NCBI GenBank assembly: GCA_903840415.1
Contig: CAIMFY010000082.1
Location: 1 to 64,000 of the forward strand
Source of the DNA: an uncultured Opitutia bacterium
Lineage (GTDB): Bacteria; Verrucomicrobiota; Verrucomicrobiia; Opitutales; Opitutaceae
Length of the DNA stretch: 64,000 bases
Direction: 5' to 3'
How positions within the stretch are numbered: the stretch's first letter is position 1; every line of letters begins with the position of its first letter. Positions 24,713 to 47,991 of the stretch are shown piece by piece. Both the position numbers and the translations under genes were made by a program. Under the pieces are notes generated by a model, which worked only from the letters and a program-made list of their open reading frames with translations, was not told the origin of the DNA and searched no databases.

Positions 24713-25506
24713 GACGGGAGTGCGTGCGCGCGATTGGCCTCGAACCACGCGAGTTTGCTAGCGAGCCGGACGACGTTGCCGACGATGACGATGGCGGGCG
24801 CACCGAAGCCCGCGCGCTCGGAGGCAAGCGCGATGTCACCGACCGTGCCGACAAATTGCCGGTGCGCACCCGTGGTGGCTGATTGAATCACTGCGGCAGG
24901 GGTGTCGGACGCGAGACCGCCGGCCTGAAGGCGGCGCGTGATGGACTCGAGATTTTTCATCCCCATGTAAATGCACAGCGTCGCGTCAAGCCGCCCGTAG
25001 TCTTCCCAGCGAAATGAGGAGTCGGTTTTTTTCGGATCCTCGTGGCCAGTGAGAAACACGACAGCGGAGCTGTGTTCGCGATGCGTGAGTGGGATGCCCG
25101 TGTAGCTCGCCGCGCCGAGCGCCGACGTGACGCCTGGGACGATTTCAAAAGCGATCCCGGCGGCGGCGAGCGCTTCGGCCTCCTCGCCACCGCGGCCAAA
25201 GACGAATGGATCGCCGCCTTTTAGGCGGACGACGGTTTTGCCCTCGCGCGCGAGGCGGAGGAGCGTGCCCTCGATGTCGCGCTGCGGGCAGCAGAAAGCG
25301 CCGGGCTTTTTGCCGACAAAAATCGTTTGGGCGCCCGTCCGGGCAAATGCGAGAATTTGCGGCGAGACGAGTTGATCGTAAACGATCGCGTCGGCCGCCC
25401 GGACGAGACGCAGTGCCTTCAGCGTGAGCAACTCGGGATCACCCGGGCCGGCACCGACGAGATAGACGGTGCCGGTAGCGCGAAAATCTCCAAAGTTGTG
25501 GGGCAC
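24709..25506 (-). CDS. cobA: Uroporphyrinogen-III C-methyltransferase
   Basis: 265 residues, the SUMT/CobA enzyme that methylates uroporphyrinogen III twice with S-adenosylmethionine to give precorrin-2, precursor of siroheme. Signature blocks: VYLVGAGPGDPELLTLKALR, YDQLVSP, VVRLKGGDPFVFGRGGEEAEAL, VPGVTSALGAASYTGIPLTHR and the C-terminal APAIVIVGNVVRL. The N-terminal CysG-type dehydrogenase/ferrochelatase domain is absent, so precorrin-2 oxidation must be supplied elsewhere. It starts 3 bases after the cysNC stop. Confidence 0.93.
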   Translation of the reverse strand: MPHNFGDFRATGTVYLVGAGPGDPELLTLKALRLVRAADAIVYDQLVSPQILAFARTGAQTIFVGKKPGAFCCPQRDIEGTLLRLAREGKTVVRLKGGDPFVFGRGGEEAEALAAAGIAFEIVPGVTSALGAASYTGIPLTHREHSSAVVFLTGHEDPKKTDSSFRWEDYGRLDATLCIYMGMKNLESITRRLQAGGLASDTPAAVIQSATTGAHRQFVGTVGDIALASERAGFGAPAIVIVGNVVRLASKLAWFEANRAHALPS

Positions 25507-25509
25507 TGT

Positions 25510-27390: not shown

Positions 27391-28190
27391 ATGAAGCCTT
27401 TCGCCCGGAGCTTCTGCATCGCATTGCGCTCGTGATGATCTTGGGCGCGGCCGGCGCGCTCGGAGGTGCGGGTGACTTTCAATTCTTCGATGATTTGATC
27501 GATAGTCGTCGCGGTGCTCGGAACGTCTTTGGTGATCGGCATGCAGCCGAGTGAGCGAAAGCGGCGGCCGTTTCTGGCGAAATACATCCCGGGCAGCGGG
27601 ATTTTTTCACGATCACAATAGCGCCAGATATCGATTTCGGTCCAGTCGAGGAGTGGTTGCACGCGGACGTGTTCTCCGGGACCGACCTCGGTCGTGAAGT
27701 GGTTCCAGAACTCGGGCGGCTGATCCTTGTAGTCCCACTCGAACTCGGCGTTGCGCGGCGAAAAGTAGCGCTCCTTGGCGCGCGTCGAATCCTCATCGCG
27801 GCGGATGCCGGTGATGAGCGCGTCGAACTTGTGGAGGCCGAGGACTTGTTGGAGGGCGACCGATTTCAGCTCGTGCGTGACGGTGACCGGATCGGTCGTC
27901 TCGTAGCCGATGCCGCGGGCGCGCGCCTCAGTGTTGATGTGGACGATGAGCTCGAGGCCGTAGTGCTGCTGCGCCCAAGCCCGGAACTCGAGCATCTCGG
28001 GAAACTCGTAGGTCGTATCGACATGGATGACCGGAAACGGGATGTGGCCGGTGAAGGATTTTTTCGCGAGCCAGAGGAGGACATTGGAGTCCTTGCCCAT
28101 CGACCACAACATGCCGACCTTGCCGAAGGCGTGATACGCCTCGCGCAGGAGGTAGATGCTGTGGGATTCGAGTTCGTCGAGATGGCTCAT
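27387..28190 (-). CDS. cysD: Sulfate adenylyltransferase subunit 2
   Basis: 267 residues, the small catalytic subunit of ATP sulfurylase (PAPS reductase-like N-type ATP pyrophosphatase fold). Visible are SHLDELESHSIYLLREAY, the SMGKDS pyrophosphatase loop (WSMGKDSNVLLWLA), HVDTTYEFPEM, GIRRDEDSTRAKER and the C-terminal GRAQDHHERNAMQKLRAKGFM. It works with CysN to form APS from ATP and sulfate. It lies 41 bases after cysH and overlaps cysNC by four bases. Confidence 0.95.
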   Translation of the reverse strand: MSHLDELESHSIYLLREAYHAFGKVGMLWSMGKDSNVLLWLAKKSFTGHIPFPVIHVDTTYEFPEMLEFRAWAQQHYGLELIVHINTEARARGIGYETTDPVTVTHELKSVALQQVLGLHKFDALITGIRRDEDSTRAKERYFSPRNAEFEWDYKDQPPEFWNHFTTEVGPGEHVRVQPLLDWTEIDIWRYCDREKIPLPGMYFARNGRRFRSLGCMPITKDVPSTATTIDQIIEELKVTRTSERAGRAQDHHERNAMQKLRAKGFM

Positions 28191-28231
28191 CTGTAAAATG
28201 GAACGGAGAAAATCGAGAAATCAGGCAGCGG

Positions 28232-28960
28232 TCAAATACCCGTGCCGCCGGTTTCTTCGTGGAGGCCGCACTCGCGTTTGAGGCCGAAAAAGCGCGTCTG
28301 CTCCGGCGTGAGGTCGGCGGTGAGCGGGCGGCTGGTGTGCGTGTCGCCGATCGAAACGTAGCCGTGGTGCCAGAGCGGGTGGTAGGGCAGGTGGTGTTTT
28401 TCGAGGTAGCGGTGAACGTCACGGTCGGTCCAATCAATGATCGGATGAATTTTCACGCGGCCGTCTTGGCGGCGGACGATGTCGAGGCGTTCGCGCGAGC
28501 CGGCCTGCACGCGGCGGAGGCCGGCAAGCCAGGCGCGTGCGCCGAGTTCGTGGAGTGCGCGGTGCATGGGCTCGACTTTGACGAGGTGGTTATAGCGGGC
28601 GAGGGCGTCGGGACCTTGCGTCCACAGCGGGCCGTGACGCGCTTCGAGCCACGCGGATGAAAGCGTAGGCCGGTAAACACGGAGGTTAAGATTGAGTTTG
28701 GCGGTAAGTTCGTCGGCGAAGCGGTAGGTCTCGGGAAACAGATAACCGGTATCGATAAGCACGACCGGGAGGCCCGGCACGACACGTGTGACGAGGCTGA
28801 GCATAGCAGCGGCCTGCGCACCGAAACTTGAGCTGAGGACGAGTGCGCCGCCGAATTCCGCGGCAGCCCACGCAACGCGAGCCTCGGCCGAAGCGGACGC
28901 AAGCGAGGCGTTCACCGCGGCGAGGTCAGCCGCGGGTAAATCTTTTTCCGCAGTGACCAT
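28232..28960 (-). CDS. cysH: Phosphoadenylyl-sulfate (PAPS) reductase
   Basis: 242 residues. The pyrophosphatase loop SSSFGAQ, the DTGYLFPETYRF segment, and the catalytic ECGLHEE tail (KRECGLHEETGG) are present. The paired cysteines (CC and CxxC) that bind the [4Fe-4S] cluster of APS reductases are absent: the corresponding region reads EPMHRALHELGARAW with no Cys pair. So this should be the thioredoxin-dependent PAPS-reducing type, consistent with an APS kinase domain in CysNC. The ATG at 28960 lies three bases after the stop of a Cys-rich upstream frame. Confidence 0.92.
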   Translation of the reverse strand: MVTAEKDLPAADLAAVNASLASASAEARVAWAAAEFGGALVLSSSFGAQAAAMLSLVTRVVPGLPVVLIDTGYLFPETYRFADELTAKLNLNLRVYRPTLSSAWLEARHGPLWTQGPDALARYNHLVKVEPMHRALHELGARAWLAGLRRVQAGSRERLDIVRRQDGRVKIHPIIDWTDRDVHRYLEKHHLPYHPLWHHGYVSIGDTHTSRPLTADLTPEQTRFFGLKRECGLHEETGGTGI

Positions 28961-28963
28961 CGT

Positions 28964-29041
28964 CTAGTCGAAGCAGCAGCAGCACGCGCGCGTGACACAG
29001 GTCACGTCGAACACGCAGGCGATGGTGCGGAGAAATTTCAC
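28964..29041 (-). CDS. Cysteine-rich leader peptide upstream of cysH
   Basis: A 25-codon frame from GTG at 29041 to TAG at 28964-28966. It encodes six cysteines in 25 residues and ends ACCCCFD: four consecutive TGC codons at 28973-28984. The stop is separated from the cysH ATG by one codon, so the frame is placed to act in cis on the first gene of a cysteine-making operon. Upstream the same frame stays open to a TGA at 29162-29164 and holds five more Cys codons, so a longer product from another GTG (29122) is possible. No purine-rich ribosome binding site decides the start. It is interpreted as a cysteine-sensing leader; the peptide itself is unlikely to have another job. Confidence 0.7.
   Translation of the reverse strand: MKFLRTIACVFDVTCVTRACCCCFD
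28991..29006 (-). promoter_or_regulatory. Hairpin within the Cys leader, just before the Cys run
   Basis: On the transcribed strand the bases cgtgac and gtcacg (6-bp arms, 4-base loop) form a stem that ends 6 bases before the first codon of the four-Cys run. A ribosome paused on those codons would have melted it. As double-stranded DNA the same TGAC-N4-GTCA symmetry could instead be a regulator binding site. I cannot tell which applies. Confidence 0.4.
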
Positions 29042-29198
29042 GGAGGCGCAACGTGCGCAGGGCCTCGCGCCCCGGCAAACGCGTTTGCTGTCATATCTCG
29101 TGGCGCACAGTGAACCGAGCACGATGGTAGAAAAGAGATTGGTTACGCAGTGCGATGACGGTCAGGGTTTTCGGTCCCACGAAGCGGTTGGCGATACT

Positions 29199-29219
29199 TT
29201 GAACTCGCATTGAGTTCAA
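29199..29219. promoter_or_regulatory. 8-bp inverted repeat after cysE
   Basis: Perfect arms ttgaactc and gagttcaa around a 5-base spacer, beginning 3 bases beyond the cysE stop and about 180 bases ahead of the Cys leader start (minus strand). The arms lack the GC-rich stem and U-run of an intrinsic terminator. An operator for the cysH operon is therefore an option. Confidence 0.35.
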
Positions 29220-29221
29220 TA

Positions 29222-30235
29222 TCAGATCTGCCACTCGCCATCTGGCACGACGGGGCTACCGTGGCCAACAAGAATATCGTTCTTGCGACGGCTACGGATA
29301 ACAACGCTGTCACCTTTGAACAGGGCGACGGAGTCGGCGGGGATCGATCTCATTAGCCAGACGTTGGAGCCGATGATTGAGTGTGCGCCGACCGTAGTGT
29401 CGCCACCAAGGATCGTGGCGTGCGCGTAGATCGTGACGTGGTCGCCGATGTCGGGATGGCGTTTCACGCCTTTGACGGGCTGACCGTGTTCGTCGATCTC
29501 GAAGGATTTCGCACCGAGGGTAACGCCTTGGTAGATTTTGACGTGTGAGCCGACGGTCGCAGTTTCCCCGATCACGACGCCGGTGCAGTGGTCAATGAAG
29601 AAGTAGTCGCCGAGCCGCGCGCCGGGATGGATATCGCAGCCGGTGCGTTCGTGACCATATTCAGTGAGCATGCGCGGGAGTAAAGGAACACCAAGATGAT
29701 AGAGCACGTGAGCGAGTCTCTGTAGTGAAATTACCAGCACACAGGGATACGCGACAATGATTTCCTCAACGCTTCGCGCCGCCGGATCGCCTTGATAGGC
29801 GGCGACAACATCGGTCTGAATCAGCTTTCGCAATGCGGGAAGCTGGGCGAGGAACGTGGTGGCGCGCTCCCTCGCCTGCGCGGCAGGAGCTTCCACTTTG
29901 GCGAAGCGAAAACATTTTTCGATTTCAGCGACCAGGCGCTCATCGAGCTGGGAGATCAGTTGTGCGACGTAAGTCGGTAGGGCAACCTCGGTCAGGCCTT
30001 GGACCTCAAAATAGCCCGGAAAGAGTAGGAGCATGCAGTCGACGGCCAGTTGGTTGACGGACGCCTGCGAGGGGAGGTTGACGCCATCGACATGATTGAT
30101 GCCGCCGTCGCTGCGGTAGGATTCGAGGAGGGCAAGCTTGAGATCTTGGAGGTGCATGGCGGCGTGAGCCAGTGATCGTTGAAGTGAATCGCCCGAATGC
30201 AAGCGAGCCTGAATCGCGGTTGTGACGGTAGGCAT
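29222..30235 (-). CDS. cysE: Serine O-acetyltransferase (EpsC-type)
   Basis: 337 residues from the ATG at 30235. The C-terminal left-handed beta-helix (hexapeptide repeats from about residue 195: GCDIHPGARLGDYFFIDHCTG, GVVIGETATVGSHVKIYQGVTLG, IYAHATILGGDTTVG) carries the catalytic His and Asp. The long helical N-terminal region (about 190 residues) is that of the EpsC form rather than the short E. coli CysE. The product, O-acetylserine, is the sulfide acceptor for cysteine synthesis. It is the first gene of the sulfate block by strand order, 180 bases ahead of the Cys leader. Confidence 0.92.
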   Translation of the reverse strand: MPTVTTAIQARLHSGDSLQRSLAHAAMHLQDLKLALLESYRSDGGINHVDGVNLPSQASVNQLAVDCMLLLFPGYFEVQGLTEVALPTYVAQLISQLDERLVAEIEKCFRFAKVEAPAAQARERATTFLAQLPALRKLIQTDVVAAYQGDPAARSVEEIIVAYPCVLVISLQRLAHVLYHLGVPLLPRMLTEYGHERTGCDIHPGARLGDYFFIDHCTGVVIGETATVGSHVKIYQGVTLGAKSFEIDEHGQPVKGVKRHPDIGDHVTIYAHATILGGDTTVGAHSIIGSNVWLMRSIPADSVALFKGDSVVIRSRRKNDILVGHGSPVVPDGEWQI

Positions 30236-30386
30236 GGTGCCGCGTGCATTGCTGAGTAATGTCCACAAGCGACTGGATCTGCGCGCCGTCCTGTGGCGGG
30301 CCTATCAGACGCATAGGTAAAATCCGCAATTGCGGGTCTATGATCTGGACTTGCCTGACCGACCCATTGCGCCTGTTCTATTTTAC

Positions 30387-31256: not shown

Positions 31257-34200
31257 GTGAAATACAGCGATTTCTTCCAGTTTGATCTGACCGATCGTAG
31301 AGTCCGACTCTGCGAAGCCGATCACGAGGACGAAGCCCGCCGTCTTGTCTCCCACTATTCGGTCTCAATGGGGATGGCGACTCGTCTCAAGAGTCAGATC
31401 TTTCCTGTCTTGCAACTCGACAGTGCCTTGGGCGGCAAAGCGCTATTGTTGGTCGGTCCTAGTGGGGTAGGCAAAAGTCATCTGTTGGCTGCGATTTCTA
31501 GTATCGGTGAGCGTGGAGAGTTGACCGAAAATGTGACGAATCAGAACGCGCTCATCACTAGGGATGGTTCCGAGGATGAGGGGGTTGTTGGAGTGGGGAA
31601 AATAGCCGGTCGCTTTTGTGTGATCCGCGCAACGGTAGATCTGGCGGCGAAATCGCTTCGAGAATTCCTAGTTGGCCAGTTTGAGCTATTCCTCGCTAAG
31701 CAGGAAATCTCGTATCGTTTTTCCCTTGAGTTTAGGCGCCCAGATTCGAAGGCGAGCTTTGACGATATGATGGCGGCATTTCACGAGAAGTTTCCGGAGC
31801 ACGGATTGATGGTAGTGATCGATGACCTGCTTGATTTCTTAAAATCCAGAAACGCTGAAGACCTGGACGACAGTTTGGGTTTTCTTGCTGATCTGTGTGA
31901 AGCGAGTCGGGATCTGAGATTCCGTTTCATCGCGGCCGCTCGTGAATCCATTTTCGATTGTTCCCAACTCAGCGCCGCTACTAATCACCTCCAACGCTTA
32001 CGACATCTATGCGTCGAGGTGGTGCTTGAAAAACAGGACCTGCATTTTGCGAAAGTCGCTCGATTGGTGCACAAGACGCCTGAACAACGGGGATTAGTCG
32101 ACCGACACCTTACTAAATTTGCCAAGTTTTACAGTCAGATGGGCGAGAGAATGGGTGAATTTGTTGATCTATTTCCAATTCACCCCGACTACATCGGTCT
32201 ATTGGGAAGATATTCTGCGCGAGTCGCTGACTTTCAGATTCTTTCGGAGGCTGTGGGAAGGCGATTGGAAGATGAGGTGCCCACGAACGATCCTGGCATT
32301 ATAGCCTATGATAACCATTGGAATGAACTCTGCATTGTGCCGACTGGCAGTGACGAGCACGAGTTAGTTGCAGTACAAAAATTTAGCCGCTTGCTAGAGC
32401 AACGTGTCGAGCGGTCTAATGAAGCGGTTGAAACCAAAGCGATAGCGAGGCGCATAATTCGTGCAATCTCAGTTCAACGTTTGGCCGCAAGCGATATGTA
32501 TTGCGAGTGTGGAGTAACGCCGGACGAGCTTCGAGAATCACTTTGCTTGTATTATCCGGATCTTGACGTTAGTGATAGAGACCCATCCGAAGCGCTTCTG
32601 GTCCAAGTGAAGCAAGCGCTGGAAGCAATATGTCAGGGTAATAACGACAGTCTGCTTACGGTTCATTGCCGGAATAATCAGTATCACCTCCACTTCCGGA
32701 AATTCCGGCGTTTCATCAAACCGGAGTTGATACTTCACTGGGTCAACGCACTTCCCTTTCTGTTGTTGATGGTGACCGGTGGGGTCATGTTAGGTTCGAG
32801 GTTCAGTCATCTCGATCGCCAACTGTTCAGTTGGGCTGTAACGTTACACAAGGCATGTGCCTTCACATGGTTGCTCGGACTGCCGTTGAGCTTGTCGTCG
32901 CGTCCCAAATTTCATTGGAGAAATATTCGCACCTTCTTCACTTGGGGTGCTAAGGACGCAGCATGGATGATCCAGTCCGCGCGTAGCCTTTACAATAAGT
33001 CGGCGGTCATCCCACCAGCCGGCCGTTTTAACACTGGTCAGAAGATCAATGCCTGCCTAGTCATATTATATTACTTCGGATTTGGCGCGACAGGTGTGTT
33101 AATGTTCTCGAAGGGGACGATTCTTTTCCCGTGGTACATTCATACGGCGCTGTTTTTCTCCGCTATGGGATCGGTCGGCGGCCATCTCTTTCTGGCGTTG
33201 ATCAATCCGAGCACCCGCATCGCTATCGCGGGGATTTTTCATGGCTGGGCGCCGATGAAATACGTCGAGCACCATCACGCGCTGAGTCTCCCTAAGTCGC
33301 TACAGTCACACGCTGAAAAGGATAGTGCTAGAGCTGTCGCCGAGGAAGTATTTGTATCTAAGGTAGAAGTTGGTGTCCTCGTCGGCACCATTCTCCTGGC
33401 TGGCGCAGGAATTTTCGCGTTCGGTCAGGGACGGATGGCGACTGCAAAAAATCAATTTGATAAAGGTTTCGCCGACTTGATTCAGCCGAGTCAACTCACC
33501 ACCAAGCACCGTATCGGTCCCACAGCTGAATCATGCACGAAGTGTCATCTTTTTACTGGAGAGATACCAAACCAGAAGTGCGAGCAATGCCATCTCGACG
33601 TAAAATCCCGCCGTGCGGAACATATTGGCTTTCATGGCACGCTCAAAGGAGATTGCCGGTCCTGCCACCGCGAACATCGCGAGCATACTGCGCCGCTCGT
33701 GCCGTTGGACCGGAACAAATTCGATCACAATGAGGCTCTTTTCAAATTAGAGGGCAAGCATGCCGCAGTGAAATGCGAAGATTGCCACAAAGAGACTCGA
33801 AAGCCCGACACGCCTGGAATTTATTACATCGGGCTAAAACACGACAAATGCGCAGATTGTCATCGCGATCAGCATGCCGGGCAATTCGCAGCAAAGTGTG
33901 AAACGTGTCACACCCCTGCTGGCTGGACGGGAAAGAATCTAAAATTTCGACACGAGAAGGACTCTGAATTTCCCTTGGCTGGTCTTCATGCAACGGTGGA
34001 ATGCCGGAAGTGCCATCAACCGCCCAAGACTGCTGATTCAGTTGGTTTGGCCAAGTTTAAAGGACTACCGAAGGACTGTGCGGGGTGTCATGAGGATCCT
34101 CATCGTGGGCAGTTTGCGACCCGATGCAGTGATTGCCATACGCCAGTCGGGTGGCATGGGAAGAATCTAAATTTTGTCCACGATAAGAACTCGAGGTTTT

Positions 34201-35006
34201 TATTGGTCGCAAGTCACGCTCAGGTTGCGTGTGAAAAATGTCATCAGCCTTTAAAGACTGGCGAGCCCCTTGGTCGGGCGCAGTTTCGTGGTTTAAAGAC
34301 AGAATGCGCTGACTGTCACCAGGATCCTCATCGTGGGCAGTTTGCACGTGACTGCACAAAATGCCACGCAACACCAAACACGTGGGCAGTGACCGCTCTT
34401 AAGTTTGAGCATGATCGTGACACAGAATTTACCCTTCTAGGGAAACACTCGTCGGTTGATTGCATCAAATGTCATAAGCCTCGTGCAGAGGACGGTTCAC
34501 TTGCCTCGGCCAAGTTTAAGAGTCTCGAGACTGCGTGCTCAAGTTGTCATGCGATAAAGCATCCCGAATGGTATGGTTCCACCTGCACAGCCTGTCATAC
34601 TCCCTCAAATTGGATTCAAAAGGAGCCGACTTTTGATCATACTCGTGACGCTCGATTCGAGTTGGCTGGCAAGCACTTCGTGGCCAAGTGCAGCGCCTGC
34701 CACACAGACAAGATCTTTGCCGTTCTAGATCATTCCGCCCGACGGAATTTCACCTGCCTCACATGTCATCAGAAGGATGAACCGCACAAGAGCACTTTAG
34801 GCACAAATTGCTCTCAATGTCACAGTCCCATTGGCTGGAAAGGAGAAGATCTCCTGTTTGACCATAACACCATGGCGAGCTTTGGATTGAATGCCGATCA
34901 CGAAAATGTATCCTGTGTGAAGTGTCACAAAAATAGAGTTTGGAAGCCCTTGGATTCCGCCTGTTCCAGCTGCCATACAAAATTCTTTTTGGATAGCAGA
35001 AAATAA
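31257..35006 (+). CDS. DUF6079 (PglY-like) ATPase fused to cytochrome b and 20-heme cytochrome c
   Basis: One uninterrupted frame, 1249 residues, start GTG at 31257 (TGA lies in frame just upstream). Residues 1-480 follow the DUF6079 ATPase from its first residues: MKYSDFFQFD, Walker A GPSGVGKS (67-74), Walker B VVIDDLLDF (about 186-194), FRFIAAARESIF, DLFPIHPDYIG, GIIAYDNHW and ISVQRLAASDMY. From about 490 it becomes a four-helix FdhI/HydC-type cytochrome b with one His per helix (ILHWVNALPF, TLHKACAF, YIHTALFF, GGHLFLAL) ending in VEHHHALSLP. A fifth helix (about 703-722) follows, then 20 CXXCH sites from 760 to 1240, partly as 76-residue tri-heme repeats. Five helices put the ATPase in the cytoplasm and the c-hemes in the periplasm. 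It is likely a quinol-linked electron exporter; the ATPase's purpose is unknown. Confidence 0.85.
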   Translation: MKYSDFFQFDLTDRRVRLCEADHEDEARRLVSHYSVSMGMATRLKSQIFPVLQLDSALGGKALLLVGPSGVGKSHLLAAISSIGERGELTENVTNQNALITRDGSEDEGVVGVGKIAGRFCVIRATVDLAAKSLREFLVGQFELFLAKQEISYRFSLEFRRPDSKASFDDMMAAFHEKFPEHGLMVVIDDLLDFLKSRNAEDLDDSLGFLADLCEASRDLRFRFIAAARESIFDCSQLSAATNHLQRLRHLCVEVVLEKQDLHFAKVARLVHKTPEQRGLVDRHLTKFAKFYSQMGERMGEFVDLFPIHPDYIGLLGRYSARVADFQILSEAVGRRLEDEVPTNDPGIIAYDNHWNELCIVPTGSDEHELVAVQKFSRLLEQRVERSNEAVETKAIARRIIRAISVQRLAASDMYCECGVTPDELRESLCLYYPDLDVSDRDPSEALLVQVKQALEAICQGNNDSLLTVHCRNNQYHLHFRKFRRFIKPELILHWVNALPFLLLMVTGGVMLGSRFSHLDRQLFSWAVTLHKACAFTWLLGLPLSLSSRPKFHWRNIRTFFTWGAKDAAWMIQSARSLYNKSAVIPPAGRFNTGQKINACLVILYYFGFGATGVLMFSKGTILFPWYIHTALFFSAMGSVGGHLFLALINPSTRIAIAGIFHGWAPMKYVEHHHALSLPKSLQSHAEKDSARAVAEEVFVSKVEVGVLVGTILLAGAGIFAFGQGRMATAKNQFDKGFADLIQPSQLTTKHRIGPTAESCTKCHLFTGEIPNQKCEQCHLDVKSRRAEHIGFHGTLKGDCRSCHREHREHTAPLVPLDRNKFDHNEALFKLEGKHAAVKCEDCHKETRKPDTPGIYYIGLKHDKCADCHRDQHAGQFAAKCETCHTPAGWTGKNLKFRHEKDSEFPLAGLHATVECRKCHQPPKTADSVGLAKFKGLPKDCAGCHEDPHRGQFATRCSDCHTPVGWHGKNLNFVHDKNSRFLLVASHAQVACEKCHQPLKTGEPLGRAQFRGLKTECADCHQDPHRGQFARDCTKCHATPNTWAVTALKFEHDRDTEFTLLGKHSSVDCIKCHKPRAEDGSLASAKFKSLETACSSCHAIKHPEWYGSTCTACHTPSNWIQKEPTFDHTRDARFELAGKHFVAKCSACHTDKIFAVLDHSARRNFTCLTCHQKDEPHKSTLGTNCSQCHSPIGWKGEDLLFDHNTMASFGLNADHENVSCVKCHKNRVWKPLDSACSSCHTKFFLDSRK

Positions 35007-35264
35007 TACCATCGGCAGTCGCTGCTGCGCGGTGTGACAAAACACAGGTAACCGTAGGTGTATAACAGAAGCAGCGCACACGCCATAGTCACGTGAAGCG
35101 TTTTTAGATTGATTTTACACTCAGCAACTGGACAGCAGTGTAAGCCACCTATACAAAGTTACCTATAACTCGATTTCCCATCCGCCCACAACCACCCAGA
35201 CACGGTATCCGAATCAATTCCGCGCTACCGTGATGACAGACAACTAACAATAATACCGATCAGT

Positions 35265-35894
35265 ATGAAAACAGACAAAACGATACGAACTCACATAGTG
35301 TTCTCTATTGCGATAGTCGCTTCCGCACTGCTGGAACCCTGCGCAAATGCATCCTCTATCGTAGGCACAAAACACGACTTATCGTCATATACTAACAGTT
35401 CAGGGCAAATCTGCATCGCTTGTCATACGCCACACAATGCCCAAGCAGATCAACTCGTGCCTTTGTGGAATCATGCCGCGACGACGACACAATTTACGCT
35501 TTATAGCAGTGTTACTGCGAAATCAGTTCCAGGACAGCCTACCGGTTACTCGAAGGCGTGCCTCAGTTGCCATGATGGAACCTTGGCGCTCGACTCCTTC
35601 GGGGGTAAGACGCCTGCTGGAGCTGGAAAAATTTCCGGCGCTAACAATCTCGGCACTGATTTGAGCGATGATCATCCAGTGTCATTTACCTATGACACAA
35701 ATCTTGCTACCGCTCACCCTGGAATAGTTAGCCCAGCAAGTGCAGCCTTTGTAGATACCGCAAAAACGGTGCCATTGTTCAATGGAAAACTTGAGTGCTC
35801 ATCATGCCATGATGCTCATGATAACCAGAACACCTTCTTTCTGCGAAAATCCAATGCGGGCAGTGCACTCTGCTTGAGTTGTCACAATAAATAG
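35265..35894 (+). CDS. Tetra-heme paired-CXXCH cytochrome c
   Basis: 209 residues with signal sequence IVFSIAIVASALLEPCANA. Four heme sites are present: QICIACHTPHNA, ACLSCHDGTLALD, CSSCHDAHDN and a terminal CLSCHNK. The two-plus-two layout, the CHTPHN and CHDGT motifs and the DDHPVSFTYD segment match the doubled-CXXCH domain also seen at 40880. Probably periplasmic or secreted. It starts 258 bases after the fusion gene in AT-rich sequence, and I saw no Shine-Dalgarno sequence before the ATG. Confidence 0.85.
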   Translation: MKTDKTIRTHIVFSIAIVASALLEPCANASSIVGTKHDLSSYTNSSGQICIACHTPHNAQADQLVPLWNHAATTTQFTLYSSVTAKSVPGQPTGYSKACLSCHDGTLALDSFGGKTPAGAGKISGANNLGTDLSDDHPVSFTYDTNLATAHPGIVSPASAAFVDTAKTVPLFNGKLECSSCHDAHDNQNTFFLRKSNAGSALCLSCHNK

Positions 35895-36061
35895 AAATAT
35901 CCGCATTGATTCTGCTCCAGCGCCCTAGCAAAAGATATAGACTACGGCGTTGGCGCGATGGAAGTCTAGGATTTAGCGTGCCACGGGAATCTATAGCTCA
36001 GGCGACCAGATATGCAATAGTAGTTGCTGTGCCGACGACTCTAGAAAACACACTGAAAACG

Positions 36062-37222
36062 ATGAAAAGATTATTGAAACAGAGCAGATTGTTAGTGGCG
36101 AGTATGGTTCTTTTGGGAGTTATCTCAGGGTGTTCGACTCCACCAAAGGTTGAATTGGCTCCGGCAACATATTATCCAATGCCGCCGCTACCACCGCGTC
36201 TTCAATTCTTGATCGCATATTCGGGTGAACAAGATCTTGGAGGTGGTCCGAGCCAGTTTGCTACGTTTGTAGTAGGCAAAGAACCAGTCAGGAAACCGAT
36301 CAACAAGCCATATGGTGTGGCGCTGCATGATGGGAAAATTTATGTTTGTGACACTGGTGCCTCGGCGATTGATATCTTGGATCTCCGCACTCGGGAATTG
36401 CGCTATTTTATCCCCGGCGGTGAAGGCAAACTTGTTACGCCAACGAATATTGCAGTCGATCGCGATGGAACAAAATATATCGCCGATTCCGCTCGCGGCC
36501 AGATTCTCGTATTTGGTCGGGACGACAGTTTTCAAGGAGCAATCGGCGGCCGGCAGAATGGACCTGGCCGGGCGCATACCCGACTTATGCCGGTGCCCAC
36601 TGAAAGCGATGCAGCGTCAAATTCCGAAGAAGGAATGAAGCCAACCGATGTGCAGATATTCGGCGATCGTTTGTATGTGACTGATCTGAAAAACCGTTGT
36701 GTCCGGGCGTATGACAAGACAAAGCGGAAACTTCTGTTCACGCTTCCGCGTGATCCAGCGACAGCGGATATAAGGAGTAAGCTTTTCGCTCCAGCCAATC
36801 TCGCTGTTGACGCCGAAGGACGGATTTACGTTTCTGACATAGGAGCTTTTCGAGTGCAGCAATATGCCCCAGATGGGCAATTCATCCGCCAGTTTGGTCA
36901 GGGTTCTGGGGACCGACCTGGTGAGTTTGCGCGACCCAAGGGCGTCGCGGTTGATCGGGAGGGTCTCGTGTACATTGTCGATGCGGCGACACAAGTAGTG
37001 CAGATTTTTAATCCCGAGGGACAATTGCTGCTATACTTCGGCGAAATGCAGGGAAGCTCTCCGGGCCTGGATCTGCCAGCAAAAGTGGCGATCGACTATG
37101 AACACACTGCGATGTTCGACTCTTATGCGGCGCCCGATTTTAAGATCGAGCATTTGGTGATCGTCACCAGCCAGATTGGTGAGCGCAAAGTCAGCGTGTT
37201 TGGATTTGGGCACAAGATATGA
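36062..37222 (+). CDS. NHL-repeat beta-propeller lipoprotein
   Basis: 386 residues from the ATG at 36062. The N-terminus is a lipoprotein signal (LLVASMVLLGVISGC, lipobox VISGC). The mature protein contains about six NHL-type blades: KPYGVALHDGKIYVCDTG, TNIAVDRDGTKYIADS, TDVQIFGDRLYVTDLKN, ANLAVDAEGRIYVSDIG, KGVAVDREGLVYIVDAA and a last partial blade. NHL propellers act as protein-protein platforms and accompany outer-membrane cytochrome complexes in metal-reducing bacteria. The upstream in-frame codons to 35906 lack a signal and were not used. No clear ribosome binding site is visible. Confidence 0.85.
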   Translation: MKRLLKQSRLLVASMVLLGVISGCSTPPKVELAPATYYPMPPLPPRLQFLIAYSGEQDLGGGPSQFATFVVGKEPVRKPINKPYGVALHDGKIYVCDTGASAIDILDLRTRELRYFIPGGEGKLVTPTNIAVDRDGTKYIADSARGQILVFGRDDSFQGAIGGRQNGPGRAHTRLMPVPTESDAASNSEEGMKPTDVQIFGDRLYVTDLKNRCVRAYDKTKRKLLFTLPRDPATADIRSKLFAPANLAVDAEGRIYVSDIGAFRVQQYAPDGQFIRQFGQGSGDRPGEFARPKGVAVDREGLVYIVDAATQVVQIFNPEGQLLLYFGEMQGSSPGLDLPAKVAIDYEHTAMFDSYAAPDFKIEHLVIVTSQIGERKVSVFGFGHKI

Positions 37223-37241
37223 CCCGGATTCGTTCTGGGCC

Positions 37242-37865
37242 ATGAACCTACAAGACAGGCGGCACATATCTGCTTTAATTGGCTTGTTAATTTCTTTCAC
37301 TGCCTGCACTGCCACCCACCGGACAAGAATTCTGACGGCGGTATTTGACGGAGTTCCTTCCGAGAAAACACCACAAGCTGACGCTCTGGTGGTCGCTGAA
37401 TCTAATGCGTCCGACGAGGTGAGTCTGCAAGTGTCAGAACTCTATGCGCGCGCTAGAGCAGCCCCGCCGGGTGTGCGTCATAAACCCTTTGCGAATCGTG
37501 AATGTCTCTCATGCCACGAATCACAGTTTTCAGAGAAGTTGCGAGCAGATGTCACTGAACTTTGTCAACTTTGCCATAAGAGCATGTTCGGGCCACGGTC
37601 CTTTCCACACGCTCCTGTAGAAGCGAAGCACTGCCTAGAATGTCACAAACCGCATGAGAGTATCGAGCCCGCGTTGCTCGCTCAATCAGAAAGGGAGGTT
37701 TGTGCCAAATGCCACGATCAAAACCGTGTGCTGAGCACGCCGGCCCACACACAAATCGGCAATGACGCGTGCCACGGTTGCCACGATTCACACGGAGGTC
37801 AGAAAAAGTATTTTCTTAAAGAGACAGTGACCGTCCGAGCGGTTGCTCCTACTGCATCCTCTTAA
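37242..37865 (+). CDS. Penta-heme cytochrome c lipoprotein
   Basis: 207 residues from the ATG at 37242, chosen because it gives a lipoprotein signal (SALIGLLISFTAC, lipobox FTAC). A Ser/Ala/Glu-rich linker precedes a compact domain with five CXXCH sites: CLSCH, CQLCH, CLECH, CAKCH and CHGCH. Several additional His (FPHAPVEAKHC, PAHTQIGND) could be sixth ligands. It is followed after 5 bases by the outer-membrane barrel gene. A lipidated multiheme cytochrome next to a barrel is the periplasmic-face subunit arrangement of porin-cytochrome conduits. Confidence 0.85.
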   Translation: MNLQDRRHISALIGLLISFTACTATHRTRILTAVFDGVPSEKTPQADALVVAESNASDEVSLQVSELYARARAAPPGVRHKPFANRECLSCHESQFSEKLRADVTELCQLCHKSMFGPRSFPHAPVEAKHCLECHKPHESIEPALLAQSEREVCAKCHDQNRVLSTPAHTQIGNDACHGCHDSHGGQKKYFLKETVTVRAVAPTASS

Positions 37866-37870
37866 TCATT

Positions 37871-39850
37871 ATGGCTGCTCGATTACACGTCTCGCGGCTG
37901 ATTCTTTGGCTGAACGTCATTTTAGCATGTGTAACAGAACTGTCCGCTCAATGGTCTCCAGATGTGCAAGGGCCACAAATGTTGAGGGTGCATGCAAGTG
38001 ACGAAAATATTCAGATTAACGTGGAGGGTCAAACAGACCAGCGAACTAATCGCGGTGATCCGATTCGCCGGGACTACGTTTTGGTTGAACCGACCATCGG
38101 GTTTGCGCTAAGGGGTTCGATTTATCACCCGAACCTTCTTGAATTCAATTTAAGTCCGGAATTCGGCTCCAGTTGGCAAGTGATGAGGTTGGATCCATCT
38201 GGCGGTGTCAGATTGTCGCAGAATTTTCTTCAGCGTTACGAGCTCAGTTTCGACGTGCTTCGGGCAAAACCCTATGCGGCACATTTTTTTGCGGAACAAG
38301 GCCGCTCGCACCGAGACCTAGATTTCTTCAGCAGAGTCCAAGTGGACAGTGAGCGTTACGGATTCCACGCGGGTTACACGGTCGGTCCGTTTCCCTTCAC
38401 TTGCGACGTGATGCACGTCGCAGAGACAGCGACAGGTGGTCTTGGTCAGGCGACCGACGTTGCCGACAATACTTTTTCTTTCAACGTAGGCCGCGCTGAA
38501 CAGAAGAATCACAAGACTAATCTCACCTATGTTTTAAATACTTACAATCGAATTGAAGGGGCCGTCGCTCCGTCAACTGGCACCGCCCAGAACGCGACCC
38601 TTCTTGATTCATTCTCATTTGGCAGGGAGGAGTGGATTTCACTCCATACTACCGGTCTGTTCAGCCAGTTGAATAGTTCCGCCAGCCATAACCGAAGTTT
38701 AGCTGTCCAAGAACATCTCGGGCTCCCATTCCGTCAAATTCTGACGGGTGACTGCTACTATGACTTCGGCGACCAACGGACAGACTATGTAGCGAGTCGC
38801 TCGCAAGAAGCACGGGCTACGGTGAAGCATCAACTTTACAAGAGCCTGACCTCCTCGTTTACTGTGCAGGGGGCATCGTTGGAATCACGCAGTCGGGATA
38901 CAAGTCTGGCAGAGAAACGCATCGGAGTCGCCGCAGTGGAGAATTATTCAAAACAACTTCCTGGGCGCGGTTTTTTAAATATTAGCGCAAATTGGCGAGG
39001 CGACCGGCTGCAACGCGAGACAACGGGACATGTGCTCTATGTGGCAAATGAGACAATCACATTGAGTGATCAGAAACCATCGTTCCTGAGCAAACCAAAT
39101 GTCTTGGAGGTAAGCCGAGTGACCAATCCCGTCGGGGTCGCCTATGTTGAGACTTTGGATTACGTTCTGGTGCGGCACGCCAATGTGATGGAAGTCCGCC
39201 GCGTGCCCGGCGGTAACATTCCGGTGGGTGGCAACGTGATGGTAGACTATTCTGCGACGCCACTTCCAACCGATTCCTATTCAACGATAATGCAATACTA
39301 CTCTGTGCGTGTGGATTTGTTTGACCGACTCATAGGTTTATATGGTCGACTGAATCGGGTCGATAATTTCGGCGGCCAGTCGCTCGTGCTGCGCGACCTA
39401 TCAGATCGTGCAATCGGCGCTGAAATTCAATGGCGTTGGCTGGTCATCGGCGCCGAGCGCGACCGACAGGATTCGAATCTGTTTCCGTTTTATTCTAAGC
39501 GACTATATCAATCATGTGTCTTGGAGCTTGGTGCAGGCACTACATTTACTGTGGATACTGAGCAAAGCTGGACGAGCTTTCCCGATACGGGGTTGGAGCG
39601 GGAAAGTCGCAGTTTCATCTCCCGTTTCCAGCAACAGCTTGCCTCGTTCGTTTCTTGGCAAATTGAGGGCGGACTTCACCGCGAACGGGGGCTGGGCATC
39701 GATCAGGATCGGAAGGTGGCCCGTGCGTCACTCGCGTTCACCTATGGCAAGCTGAGGTTGAATATGAGCTATGATTTTGAGGACGAAAATCTAGTCGGTG
39801 AACTCCACCGCCAACAGCATGTCATGCTGCGTGTTAAACGCAATTTCTGA
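37871..39850 (+). CDS. Outer-membrane beta-barrel (porin-like)
   Basis: 659 residues with signal peptide (LILWLNVILACVTELSA). The mature chain is free of hydrophobic helices and made of alternating amphipathic strands with frequent aromatic girdle residues (GFALRGSIYHPNLLEFNLSPEFG, YVLNTYNRIEG, LRLNMSYDFEDE). It ends ...VKRNF, the C-terminal Phe of outer-membrane barrels. I do not recognise a specific family. Its position between a lipidated penta-heme cytochrome and an NHL/multiheme pair suggests it is the sheath of a porin-cytochrome complex. A role as a general porin is possible. Confidence 0.7.
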   Translation: MAARLHVSRLILWLNVILACVTELSAQWSPDVQGPQMLRVHASDENIQINVEGQTDQRTNRGDPIRRDYVLVEPTIGFALRGSIYHPNLLEFNLSPEFGSSWQVMRLDPSGGVRLSQNFLQRYELSFDVLRAKPYAAHFFAEQGRSHRDLDFFSRVQVDSERYGFHAGYTVGPFPFTCDVMHVAETATGGLGQATDVADNTFSFNVGRAEQKNHKTNLTYVLNTYNRIEGAVAPSTGTAQNATLLDSFSFGREEWISLHTTGLFSQLNSSASHNRSLAVQEHLGLPFRQILTGDCYYDFGDQRTDYVASRSQEARATVKHQLYKSLTSSFTVQGASLESRSRDTSLAEKRIGVAAVENYSKQLPGRGFLNISANWRGDRLQRETTGHVLYVANETITLSDQKPSFLSKPNVLEVSRVTNPVGVAYVETLDYVLVRHANVMEVRRVPGGNIPVGGNVMVDYSATPLPTDSYSTIMQYYSVRVDLFDRLIGLYGRLNRVDNFGGQSLVLRDLSDRAIGAEIQWRWLVIGAERDRQDSNLFPFYSKRLYQSCVLELGAGTTFTVDTEQSWTSFPDTGLERESRSFISRFQQQLASFVSWQIEGGLHRERGLGIDQDRKVARASLAFTYGKLRLNMSYDFEDENLVGELHRQQHVMLRVKRNF

Positions 39851-39851
39851 C

Positions 39852-40883
39852 ATGAAGCAGCGACAAACATCCGGTTGCGAAATGCTTGGCTTGATGGCCG
39901 GACTGCTTTTGATGAGCACTCCACTTATTGCCGACAGCTTGTCGAACAAAGTAGCTCAACCGCGGATTTGGCCTTCTCCGCCTGCGGTCGCTCGAGTGAA
40001 GACGGAAGGTACGATTTCGGCACCCGAGGATCTGGGCATCGGGCCGACATGGTTTAACCGGATCGCCAACGTGCTGGCCGGGGGAAATCGAGGACGGGAA
40101 AAACTGATCAAGCCATTTGGCGTCGCGGTGGATGAGGCTGGAAATCTTTGCATTACCGACACGGGTGCCAAAGTTGTCTGGTATTTCGATCGCGTGAGAC
40201 AACGCTCTTCCCGTTGGGAAGAAATCGAAAAAGTGAGGTTTGTCGTTCCAGTGGCAGTGGCCAAGGCTGATGGGATATTTTATGTCGCTGATTCCGGACT
40301 CGGCCAAGTGGTAGCGTTCGACGAGGCGGGTCGAACTCGCTTTCGCCTGACGGGCCTGTTCGCCCGGCCGGCGGGCCTCGCTCTTTCTGCCGATAAAATA
40401 TATGTTGCCGATTCCGCAGCGCATTCGGTGCTCAGCTTCAACCTGCAAGGGAGGCTTTTGGGCAAGTTTGGAACGCGCGGCGTAGGCCAGGGGCAGTTTA
40501 ATTATCCCACGCATGTAGCTACCGATAGGGAAGGCCGTGTTTACGTTACAGATGCGATGAATTCGCGGGTGCAACTATTTGACGGCGACGGCCGTTATCT
40601 CAGCGAACTGGGAGGCATCGGTGACGGCTCGGGTTATTTCAGCCGCCCCAAAGGTGTGGCCGTGGATGGTTTTGGCCATGTCTATGTGGCCGATGCTCTC
40701 TTCGACAACGTCCAGGTGTTTGCTCGGGATGGCGATTTTCTCCTCGACTTGGGATCGTCCGGTTCAGCTCCTGGTGAATTCTGGATGCCGGCTGGAATAG
40801 CGATCGGCCGCGATAACCGAATCTATATCGCCGATACATATAACGGTAGGATTCAGGTGCTACGTTACGTTGGCCAACCATGA
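39852..40883 (+). CDS. NHL-repeat beta-propeller protein (exported)
   Basis: 343 residues from the ATG at 39852, one base after the barrel stop. Signal sequence MLGLMAGLLLMSTPLIADS. Six NHL-type blades are visible, among them KPFGVAVDEAGNLCITDTG, VAKADGIFYVADSG, LALSADKIYVADSA, THVATDREGRVYVTDAM, KGVAVDGFGHVYVADAL and AGIAIGRDNRIYIADTY. It resembles the lipoprotein at 36062 but lacks a lipobox. It overlaps the next cytochrome gene by four bases, so the two are translated together. Confidence 0.88.
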   Translation: MKQRQTSGCEMLGLMAGLLLMSTPLIADSLSNKVAQPRIWPSPPAVARVKTEGTISAPEDLGIGPTWFNRIANVLAGGNRGREKLIKPFGVAVDEAGNLCITDTGAKVVWYFDRVRQRSSRWEEIEKVRFVVPVAVAKADGIFYVADSGLGQVVAFDEAGRTRFRLTGLFARPAGLALSADKIYVADSAAHSVLSFNLQGRLLGKFGTRGVGQGQFNYPTHVATDREGRVYVTDAMNSRVQLFDGDGRYLSELGGIGDGSGYFSRPKGVAVDGFGHVYVADALFDNVQVFARDGDFLLDLGSSGSAPGEFWMPAGIAIGRDNRIYIADTYNGRIQVLRYVGQP

Positions 40884-42556
40884 AATTTGCGTCCACCATT
40901 CTTAGCTTCTCAGTTCTGCTCTCCGTGGCCCGGGCCGGATCGATTGTGACCACCAAGCACAATCTCTCCGTCAATGGAACTGGCACCTACAAAGCGGTTA
41001 CTGAATCGCAGATCTGCATCTTCTGCCATACACCGCATAACAGCAGTCGGGTCGCTCCTTTGTGGAACCGAGCCAGTTCGGGGCAGACGTATGTGCCCTA
41101 CACCAGTTCCACGGCCAAGGCTCATCCCGGCCAGCCCACCGGTGACTCGAAGCTCTGCTTGAGTTGTCACGATGGCACGATTGCATTGGGCATGGTGCTA
41201 AGTCGCCCCGCCGGAATTCAGATGCAGGGAGGCGTCACAGTCCTGCCTTCAGGCACGACCGTATTGGGCACCGATCTTAGCAACGATCACCCGATCTCGT
41301 TTACTTACGATTCGGCGCTTGCGACCGCTAACGGCCAGTTGAACAGCCCTGCTACGTTGACCGGCGCAATTCATTTAGACGCCAACAGTCAACTTCAGTG
41401 CACGACCTGCCATGACGCCCACGACAATCAGTTCGGAAAATTTCTGGTGATGAACAATATGGCGTCTGCGTTGTGCATCACCTGCCACAACAAAACCTAT
41501 TGGAGCACCACCCTGCACAACACCTCGACGAAAACCTGGAACGGACTCGGAACCAACCCCTGGCCTCACACCGCGAATACCACGGTCCAAGCCAACGCCT
41601 GCGAAAACTGCCATCGACCACACGCGGCGGGCAACAAACCGCGTTTGATGAATTTCGCCGGCGAGGAAACAAATTGCTACACCTGCCATAACGGTAACGT
41701 GGCGGCGAAAAATATTCAGGCCGAATTCAGCAAGGCTAGCGTCCACCCGGTTGCGGCCACGACCGGCGTTCACGATCCCACCGAGGATCCAGTGAATTCG
41801 CCACGGCACGTCGAATGCGAGGACTGCCATAATCCGCACGCTTCGAAGGCGCAGTCGGCCTTGGCCCCCACGGCTTCCGGTGATCTCGCCGGCGTCAGGG
41901 GCATCAGTAGCACGGGCAACGTCGTCAACTCCATAGCCAACCAGTTTGAACTCTGTTTCCGGTGCCACGGAGATAGCACCAATCGCGGCCCGGCACGTGT
42001 GGCGCGCCAATTCGTGCAGACCAACACTCGCTTGGAATTCCAAAGTTCCAATGCATCCTATCATCCTGTCCTCGCGGCTGGGAAGAATCCGAGCGGCCCC
42101 AGCCTGATCGCCCCTTGGACGACTGCCAGCATGATGTATTGCACCGATTGCCATAACAATAACCAAGGACCTGGAGCCGGGGGCACCGGACCCAATGGGC
42201 CACATGGCTCAAGTTATACTCCCCTGCTAGAGCGACAGTTGGTTTTGACCGACAATCAGACAGAATCCGCCACCATCTACGCCCTCTGCTACAAATGCCA
42301 CAGCCGCACCGTCGTTCTTTCCAGCGCTAGCTTTAAACTCCATAGCAAGCATGTATCGGACGTGAGGACTGCTTGCACCACCTGCCATGATCCGCATGGC
42401 GTGACTAGCACAACGCATCTGATGAACTTCAATACCGCTTATGTCACGAAGTCGACCAAGCGAAACGCTGGCCCAACCTTCACCGACAATGGAAGCGGTC
42501 ATGGCACCTGCACACTGACGTGCCATGGCGAAGACCATAGCGGCTACACCTACTGA
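40880..42556 (+). CDS. Twelve-heme-type exported cytochrome c
   Basis: 558 residues with signal peptide (FASTILSFSVLLSVARAG). There are eleven CXXCH sites: CIFCH, CLSCH, CTTCH, CITCH, CENCH, CYTCH, CEDCH, CFRCH, CTDCH, CYKCH and CTTCH. A twelfth site near the C-terminus is of the rarer CX3CH form (CTLTCH). The first part repeats the layout of the tetra-heme protein (QICIFCHTPHNS, CLSCHDGT, DDAHDNQ-like), so the two share an ancestor. Being secreted or surface-exposed is the natural guess for the large cytochrome downstream of the barrel and NHL genes. The start is fixed by the ATGA overlap. Confidence 0.9.
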   Translation: MKFASTILSFSVLLSVARAGSIVTTKHNLSVNGTGTYKAVTESQICIFCHTPHNSSRVAPLWNRASSGQTYVPYTSSTAKAHPGQPTGDSKLCLSCHDGTIALGMVLSRPAGIQMQGGVTVLPSGTTVLGTDLSNDHPISFTYDSALATANGQLNSPATLTGAIHLDANSQLQCTTCHDAHDNQFGKFLVMNNMASALCITCHNKTYWSTTLHNTSTKTWNGLGTNPWPHTANTTVQANACENCHRPHAAGNKPRLMNFAGEETNCYTCHNGNVAAKNIQAEFSKASVHPVAATTGVHDPTEDPVNSPRHVECEDCHNPHASKAQSALAPTASGDLAGVRGISSTGNVVNSIANQFELCFRCHGDSTNRGPARVARQFVQTNTRLEFQSSNASYHPVLAAGKNPSGPSLIAPWTTASMMYCTDCHNNNQGPGAGGTGPNGPHGSSYTPLLERQLVLTDNQTESATIYALCYKCHSRTVVLSSASFKLHSKHVSDVRTACTTCHDPHGVTSTTHLMNFNTAYVTKSTKRNAGPTFTDNGSGHGTCTLTCHGEDHSGYTY

Positions 42557-45013: not shown

Positions 45014-45064
45014 GCAATCAACTCGCGGGCGCGATTGCGGGCGCGCAAAACGCGCTGCCCAACT

Positions 45065-45643
45065 TTACGCCGTGGCGCGTTTCGCGAGCAAGCTTGCGTG
45101 ACCGCGGCGTTGGGCGGCGTATTCCATTGTCAGGGTAAAACCGGTCGCAAAAAGCAGATCGCTCGCGAGGGTGTTGCGGAAAAACCAAATCGTCGGTGGA
45201 AATTCCGGCCGCCCAATTGTCAGCGCCTGGCACCAGCCGGCGGCAGTTTTCACGTAATACGGATCGCGCAGCCAGGCGTCGGTGTTGGTCGCGACGTAAA
45301 AGAAGAGCGAGCAGCCGAGCGCACCGCCGAGAAGCGTCATCCAATTTTTGCCGCTGGCGACCAGCGCACCCAGTGGCAGCGCAAAGGCGAAGCAAGCGAG
45401 GCGCGTCGCCACGCTGGGCCACGACCATTCCTCGTGAAACACCGTCGCGTAGTAGTGATTGAGGTAGAGATCGGAGAGCGTCAGCGCGAGAAACGGCACG
45501 AGCCAGAGACGCTTGTCGCGGAAATAAACGGCCCCGCAAAACGTGAGTGCCATCATCGGGGCGAAATTAGCCAGCACCGGCACATGGGCGCCAACAATGC
45601 GCCAGCCGGCGGCGAGCACGAGAAGGAATAGGGCGAGAGGCAT
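45065..45643 (-). CDS. DUF6580-like membrane protein
   Basis: 192 residues from the ATG at 45643. Five or six hydrophobic helices are visible, with the recognisable NFAPMMALTFCGAVYF and LALTLSDLYLNHYY motifs of the DUF6580 group, which has the look of an ECF-type substrate-binding membrane component. Function unassigned. The next gene upstream on the same strand is a cobalamin adenosyltransferase, 75 bases away, so a link with cobalamin is possible but not shown. I saw no cobalamin riboswitch in that gap. Confidence 0.65.
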   Translation of the reverse strand: MPLALFLLVLAAGWRIVGAHVPVLANFAPMMALTFCGAVYFRDKRLWLVPFLALTLSDLYLNHYYATVFHEEWSWPSVATRLACFAFALPLGALVASGKNWMTLLGGALGCSLFFYVATNTDAWLRDPYYVKTAAGWCQALTIGRPEFPPTIWFFRNTLASDLLFATGFTLTMEYAAQRRGHASLLAKRATA

Positions 45644-45718
45644 GGGAATTTTTCTGGGCGCAAACGCGGGCGATGACAAGCACAGCGTGTGTCAGGTATG
45701 CCCTAACTTTAGCGCGGC

Positions 45719-46261: not shown

Positions 46262-46272
46262 GCGGGAGCGCC

Positions 46273-47927: not shown

Positions 47928-47991
47928 CGGTCGGATAGTTGGCCAGCGTGGGTTTGCATCTGTGCGCCCGCAAACATAATACTTTCCATCG

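Follow-up and report, generated by a model that had tools for sequence, protein, structure and literature searches.

A BrxC/PglY-type ATPase unit fused in one frame to an FdnI-type cytochrome b and a 20-heme cytochrome c in an uncultured Opitutia bacterium

The 64,000-nucleotide stretch of DNA analyzed here (positions 1 to 64,000 of contig CAIMFY010000082.1, assembly GCA_903840415.1, from an uncultured Opitutia bacterium; the window) carries a gene in which an ATPase unit of the BrxC/PglY type, a membrane-bound cytochrome b and a multiheme cytochrome c follow each other. An earlier interpretation made from the letters alone (the sequence-only reading) had proposed that these parts are fused in one frame, and this was upheld, as the frame runs through 1249 codons without a break. 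It opens with a GTG start codon, and residue 1 was read as Met. The features of the gene and of its downstream neighbors are collected in Table 1.

Table 1. Parts of the fusion gene and neighboring genes in the window
Feature	Coordinates	Strand	Basis or remark
Whole fusion gene	31257..35006	+	1249 amino acids, one open frame, GTG start
BrxC/PglY (DUF6079) N-terminal unit, residues 1-482: AAA+ ATPase and first winged helix	31257..32702	+	Pfam, PADLOC, structure match
Walker A GPSGVGKS, residues 67-74	31455..31478	+	Lys73 invariant in 8/8 fusions
Walker B VVIDD, residues 186-190	31812..31826	+	Alignment to solved BrxC
FdnI-type diheme cytochrome b, residues 483-690, four helices	32703..33326	+	Profiles, FdnI alignment
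Fifth transmembrane helix, residues 702-723, leading into heme domain	33360..33425	+	Hydropathy; helix also in low-confidence model
20-heme c-type domain, residues 758-1249, triheme repeat of ~76 residues	33528..35003	+	CXXCH alignment, spacing
c-type cytochrome, 209 amino acids, 4 CXXCH, recurring neighbor	35265..35894	+	Relatives in L014, L035-L038, L068-L070
NHL-repeat protein, recurring neighbor	35906..37222	+	True start probably internal, at lipoprotein-like signal (by eye)
c-type cytochrome, 229 amino acids, 5 CXXCH	37176..37865	+	
Porin-like protein, 659 amino acids	37871..39850	+	Outer-membrane barrel inferred
Second NHL-repeat protein	39798..40883	+	
Multiheme c-type cytochrome, 558 amino acids, 11 CXXCH	40880..42556	+	

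The N-terminal half had been recognized as DUF6079, a family linked there to the PglY-like proteins of BREX systems, and profile searches bore out both points. Residues 2-482 of the fusion match positions 2-473 of the 1238 in Pfam DUF6079 (E-value 1.3e-115), and PADLOC calls the N-terminal part BrxC-PglY (PDLC02482, positions 1-470 of 1231, E-value 3.9e-120). A structural model of residues 1-757 was of low confidence (mean predicted local distance difference test score, pLDDT, 49; predicted template modeling score 0.37), and only its top structural matches were used. The best of these among solved structures were the BrxC N-terminal entries 9zll and 9zdx (Z 17.5 and 17.4), followed by the first non-BrxC row at Z 11.6. 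With VIA-align, model residues 23-481 were superimposed on BrxC 25-551 with a root-mean-square deviation of 9.0 over 305 residues (Z 17.5). A single-sequence search of solved structures with the N-terminal part did not retrieve BrxC, while a profile search did.

As far as the available text of the article goes, BrxC 1-551 consists of the AAA+ domain and the first winged helix (PMC13326643), and the domain order in the accessible part of PMC12839542 agrees. The ATPase part retained in the fusion is equivalent to this unit, and strands appear at residues 467-480 of the low-confidence model. The rest of BrxC, comprising an alpha+beta domain, the second winged helix, a coiled coil and the C-terminal dimerization region, is not present, as the two profile matches end at the positions given above. 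Since the BrxC unit ends where the cytochrome profile begins (position 1 of the formate dehydrogenase gamma profile falls at fusion residue 482), both halves of the window protein are cut at natural borders. In the fusions of three other genomes (G879, G823 and G930) the DUF6079 match reaches profile position 473, 472 and 470, respectively.

For the following part, a hidden Markov model check of its cytochrome b identity gave a divided answer. Ni_hydr_CYTB, a cytochrome b561-type family, matched residues 489-653 above its cut-off (40.4 versus 30.1 bits), whereas formate dehydrogenase gamma (TIGR01583) on residues 482-675 stayed below the curated cut-off (40.5-42.8 versus 115.85 bits; E-values 2.7e-10 to 5.6e-11). 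Ni_hydr_CYTB was below its cut-off in the G823 fusion (28.9 versus 30.1 bits) and unlisted at an E-value of 0.001 for that of G930. NapC/NirT (PF03264) was absent from the 16 Pfam families matched by the fusion up to an E-value of 1. A search of solved structures gave no match to the b part at an E-value of 0.01 and none to the heme part at 0.001; the best solved sequence match of the b part was FdnI (1kqf_C), over the whole length and at an E-value of only 0.14. In this alignment, with positions counted by hand, FdnI His18, His57, His155 and His169 pair with His494, His531, His629 and His643 of the fusion, and Asn110 and Gly112 with Asn592 and Gly594. These six fusion residues are invariant in all eight full-length fusions described below. 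In FdnI, the four His bind the hemes and the Asn/Gly pair binds quinone, at a site on the cytoplasmic side.

Hydropathy and the model place membrane helices at about 494-516, 522-547, 597-618 and 624-649, and a fifth at 702-723; a further model helix at 551-579 was not marked as membrane by hydropathy. The suggested topology, with the ATPase inside and the hemes outside, is favored by the loop charges in 8/8 fusions: the two inside loops carry 7-10 and 3-7 Lys/Arg and the outside loops 0-1, the latter taken as only five residues long and the second inside loop also holding 1-8 acidic residues. The stretch after helix 5, which would lie outside, contains 4-6 Lys/Arg. Domain matches, with c-type families following the cytochrome b in Pfam, and a motif count likewise agreed with the reported succession of a cytochrome b and 20 CXXCH sites from residue 760. 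Four fusions have 20 such sites and the other four 23, the latter having one extra triheme unit as judged by spacing. The nanowire-type profile TIGR04257 reached 14.8 bits against a cut-off of 40.

The fusion was found as eight full-length copies in seven genomes. In the window genome (G000), a further copy lies on a different contig and shares 68% identity across residues 1-1249, and six other genomes have one each; identities of the seven others to the window protein are 68, 52, 48, 50, 49, 43, and 46%. The synonymous divergence between the two copies of the window genome is near or at saturation. An assembly chimera, or a frame fusion confined to the window genome, would suit the lower G+C content of the stretch around the window copy (0.52 versus 0.63 in 1-30000). 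However, all eight frames lack internal stops and lie on different contigs of the seven genomes, which rules out such a chimera, and we attach practically no credence to this explanation. Instead of two separate genes with a stop between them, the relatives show the same one-frame junction.

A scan with short peptide patterns of a collection of 84,980 species genomes yielded 26 stretches and seven confirmed loci, namely two full-length fusions (L007 and L008), an ordinary DUF6079 protein (L009) and multiheme proteins only (L010-L013). L010-L013 and L050-L052 were set aside because the match was confined to the multiheme part. As the scan returned only two of the seven fusion genomes (the window's own was perhaps excluded, and the four others were perhaps absent from the collection or missed), rarity is not to be judged from it. 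Among sampled genomes, the fusion was present in 1 of 95 relatives (the window genome itself), in 2 of 387 from the phylum (G000 and G221, the genome of L007), in 1 of 240 from the class of G221 (again G221) and in 5 of 196 from the order of G452, the genome of L008. The cytochrome b part alone was also sought: in the phylum sample it occurred only within fusions (2/387 genomes), in viral contigs 50 pattern matches gave no confirmed case, and none was found in the genomes of L009-L012. Ordinary DUF6079 proteins were rejected as hidden fusions, with no CXXCH in the frames read, most loci covering only about the first 1000 residues. A frame of 724 amino acids in G040 was rejected as well: it lacks CXXCH, and by eye it continues beyond the junction in the manner of the ordinary proteins.

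In a tree of the ATPase part, all fusions were separated from all ordinary proteins (FastTree 0.761, IQ-TREE ultrafast bootstrap 87), and in smaller sets four fusions grouped at 0.993 versus ten ordinary rows and at 0.970 versus sixteen. A single origin of the fusions is likely, though not certain. Their mutual relations were poorly resolved, with bootstrap values of 14 to 67 at several inner nodes.

The catalytic site of the ATPase part differs between fusions and ordinary proteins. Walker A reads GNYGTGKS in the ordinary loci. By alignment to solved BrxC, Asp190 of the window protein occupies the position of the catalytic Glu269, which is Glu in 24/24 ordinary DUF6079 loci and Asp, Gln or Gly in seven of the eight fusions, while Lys73 and the Walker B Asp189 are kept in all eight. 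When two finger positions (K326/R330, carried over by hand via the same alignment) were included, the resulting K-D-E-R-R set was complete in 23 of the 24 ordinary loci, the 24th (L023) having a gap at one position and a match at the other four. It was complete in none of the fusions, where the residues are KDDRL, KDDRH, KDDLR, KDQKY, KDGRQ, KDEGH, KDGRR, and KDDGR. The ordinary set excludes L018 and L044 (duplicates of L004 and L009), L045, L046 and L049 (fragments without both site motifs) and the fragment L065, which was checked apart and has GNYGTGKS and VVDELLD. The ordinary rows are not all independent, since L059 and L060 are at zero distance in the ATPase part. Divergence alone does not explain the loss, because the ordinary L048 retains the full set at a branch length of 0.96.

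The Gln found naturally at the Glu269 position in the G452 fusion is the same change as the laboratory mutation E269Q, which is reported in the available text of PMC13326643 to lower hydrolysis and to increase ATP-dependent dimers of BrxC 1-551. The unmutated 1-551 unit is described there as mostly monomeric, with a measurable rise in dimers with ATP. Because the Lys and the Walker B Asp are kept and parts of the hydrolytic site are lost, the head of the fusion may well bind ATP while hydrolyzing little or none of it. The sequence-only reading had considered an ATP-driven machine, which is not supported by a family in which no member has the complete site.

The genes next to the fusion recur as well. 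In the window, the fusion is followed by the 209-amino-acid cytochrome, an NHL protein, the 229-amino-acid cytochrome, the porin-like protein, the second NHL protein and the 558-amino-acid cytochrome with 11 CXXCH. NHL and multiheme genes were present in the stretch read around 8/8 fusions and the porin-like gene around 5/8. The order is cytochrome, NHL, cytochrome, porin-like, fusion, NHL, two multihemes, ResB, CcsA in L007; cytochrome, NHL, porin-like, NHL, multiheme, fusion in both L068 and L069; fusion, unknown, cytochrome, NHL, cytochrome, porin-like in L070; and multiheme, ResB, CcsA, B12-radical SAM, NHL, fusion in L071. In L008, a 4-CXXCH protein at the contig start and an NHL/Ig protein precede the fusion and unrelated genes follow it. 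The second copy of the window genome (L014) lies between a 139-amino-acid cytochrome and a histidine kinase, followed by a LuxR-type response regulator, a cytochrome, NHL, a cytochrome and the contig end. The fusion frame begins 18 (G879) and 10 (G823) bases past the preceding multiheme gene. The porin-like protein has no Pfam match and would form an outer-membrane barrel; its family has a C-terminal Phe in 9/10 members, the strand-pattern test gave a weak signal (z from 0.6 to 3.5 across ten proteins, with a multiheme control up to 2.6) and structure prediction (two sequences) reached a mean pLDDT of just 29.2. Judged from domain architecture and these loci, the fusion is quite probably the protein at which electrons enter an extracellular electron-transfer conduit from the inner membrane.

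A redox-sensing defence switch had been another suggestion of the sequence-only reading. In such an anti-phage switch, the BrxC head would act together with other BREX proteins, and the cytochrome would signal infection or the energy state. Apart from the homology to BrxC, this reading could draw on G930, the only fusion genome in which PglZ was found, on contig C83 while the fusion is on contig C161. Against it, PglZ was undetected in 6/7 fusion genomes and BrxB in 3/3 tested, the window genome being among them in both cases; these are draft genomes in many contigs, so that absence is not absolute, and the search did not extend to PglX or further partners. Moreover, the C-terminal two thirds of BrxC are gone and electron-conduit genes occur in the stretch read around each of the eight fusions. 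A defence role of the fusion is thus unlikely, and this switch in particular seems very improbable. On contig C83 of G930, PglZ and an ordinary DUF6079 gene lie about 20 kb apart.

Taken in full, the interpretation that we prefer is an electron-entry protein with an ATP-binding, poorly hydrolyzing regulatory head, a statement that we regard as evenly poised. The diheme cytochrome b would exchange electrons with the quinone pool and pass them to, or take them from, the 20-heme periplasmic wire, which would join the cytochrome/NHL/porin-like conduit encoded alongside. The cytoplasmic head would be a module exapted from BREX BrxC, consisting of AAA+ and first winged helix. By binding ATP while hydrolyzing little or none of it, this head would act as a regulator that makes cytochrome assembly or activity depend on the level of adenine nucleotides. 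A quinone site on the cytoplasmic face, as in FdnI, would be near the head; moving electrons outward would then be paid for in membrane potential, and such a cost would explain why the flow is regulated. ATP sensing is our preferred reading of the head. A more specific and tentative version is energy-charge gating, in which ATP binding without turnover would make the heads dimerize or form rings, switching on or off both quinone oxidation and a single-chain wire that leads from the cytoplasm in the direction of the outer membrane.

The main rival is a nucleotide-independent scaffold, in which the head serves as a structural or docking surface that clusters the cytochrome or anchors cytoplasmic partners, the whole being a CbcL-like quinone cytochrome. 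The mean pairwise identity among the eight fusions is 38.4% in the ATPase part, 62.4% in cytochrome b, 43.9% in helix 5 plus linker and 53.7% in the heme part. The head is thus the least conserved domain, and its catalytic residues are eroded, as would fit a scaffold. However, Lys73 and Asp189 are invariant in 8/8 despite the low identity of their domain, and we consider the scaffold possible but doubtful. Several observations weigh against a regulatory head in a conduit entry protein. The low conservation also fits a decaying or merely structural domain. The loss of the site is not uniform, as the G823 fusion keeps the catalytic Glu, and it is uneven at the fingers, with Arg kept at the second in 3/8 fusions and Arg/Lys at the first in 5/8. 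In the G880 fusion the DUF6079 match stops at profile position 420, and its winged helix is therefore poorly supported. Finally, the porin-like gene was present in 7/387 genomes of the phylum sample; the fusion accompanies it in two of these and was not detected in the other five, so the conduit does not need the fusion.

The retention of a module that ends in a winged helix (available text of PMC12839542 and PMC13326643; strands 467-480 of the low-confidence model) and the position of the fusion gene at either end of several conduit loci would also suit a transmembrane redox-responsive regulator that senses the state of the heme wire or quinone and controls conduit transcription through its AAA+/winged-helix part. 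On the other hand, BrxC 1-551 alone is reported not to bind DNA (in the accessible part of PMC13326643), the second copy adjoins an ordinary histidine kinase/response regulator pair, and no fusion departs from the residues that pair with the quinone site of FdnI. Such a regulator appears rather unlikely.

Compared with known systems, the ATP-sensing entry protein proposed here shares with BrxC/PglY the N-terminal AAA+ domain and first winged helix over residues 1-482, BrxC being its best structural match. BrxC/PglY has the full C-terminal domains and a complete site, whereas the fusion has membrane and heme domains instead, in a window genome in which no PglZ or BrxB was found. CbcL of Geobacter sulfurreducens, described in the available text of PMC9129911 with six helices, two b-hemes and nine c-hemes, likewise combines a diheme b membrane part with a multiheme c domain in the periplasm, within a single chain, and is linked to extracellular electron transfer. 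This likeness is one of architecture; the fusion has 20 or 23 c-type sites instead of nine, five predicted helices instead of six, and in addition the cytoplasmic ATPase-like head. In FdnI and formate dehydrogenase gamma, the four His that ligate the hemes and the N-x-G-Q-K loop stand at matching positions, but the fusion is below the curated cut-off, is fused at both ends and has no dehydrogenase subunit among its annotated neighbors. Nanowire cytochromes such as GSU1996 (PMC10138318, as far as its text was available) also have triheme repeats in one chain, whereas the fusion is membrane-anchored and matches TIGR04257 far below its cut-off. In freshwater Verrucomicrobia, a porin gene beside multiheme cytochromes has been proposed to serve extracellular electron transfer (available text of PMC5615132). 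By description, the porin-like gene beside the multihemes here resembles that arrangement; the main text of PMC5615132, so far as available, has no NHL protein and its description names no fused ATPase.

In a literature coverage that left out subscription papers and preprints, the papers naming DUF6079 do not mention cytochromes in their main texts, those on BrxC and cytochromes report no fusion by title, none was found on multihemes and BREX, and none by title, among the matches listed, on an ATPase domain with multiheme or b cytochromes. We know of no nucleotide-controlled respiratory cytochrome described before. If energy-charge gating holds, the fusion would be the first, with a phage-defence module taken over for respiration, and would provide a testable link between the ATP level and extracellular electron transfer. 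It shows that a BREX core module can occur in a protein of respiratory type, outside phage defence and with natural losses in the catalytic site, and offers BREX research eight natural BrxC truncations that keep only the N-terminal unit.

Some minor observations concern the loci. The conduit cluster of the window (31257-42556) has a G+C content of 0.52, compared with 0.63 in both 1-30000 and 45001-64000, which suggests a horizontal origin. The contig of the second copy (C117; L014 5360-9202, minus strand) has 0.615, so the window copy may be the later arrival. In G346, which has the porin-like gene and no detected fusion, a NapC/NirT-type cytochrome is encoded in the same locus, which would agree with the existence of several kinds of inner-membrane entry protein, the fusion among them. 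A NapC/NirT-type cytochrome of 494 amino acids with 6 CXXCH, perhaps a substitute, is found at L038 1828-3312, in the conduit locus of a genome without a detected fusion. B12-binding radical SAM genes occur in conduit loci with and without the fusion (L071 13788-15320, by Pfam; L038 14669-16147, similar start by eye). In L034 (G022:C2), from a member of the family, porin-like (63.5%) and NHL (72%) genes without a detected fusion lie at a contig end beyond which the other side is unreadable. Before the fusion, on the minus strand at 22173-30268 of the window, the translations look by eye like sulfate assimilation, with sulfite/nitrite reductase, CysN/C, CysD, CysH and serine acetyltransferase.

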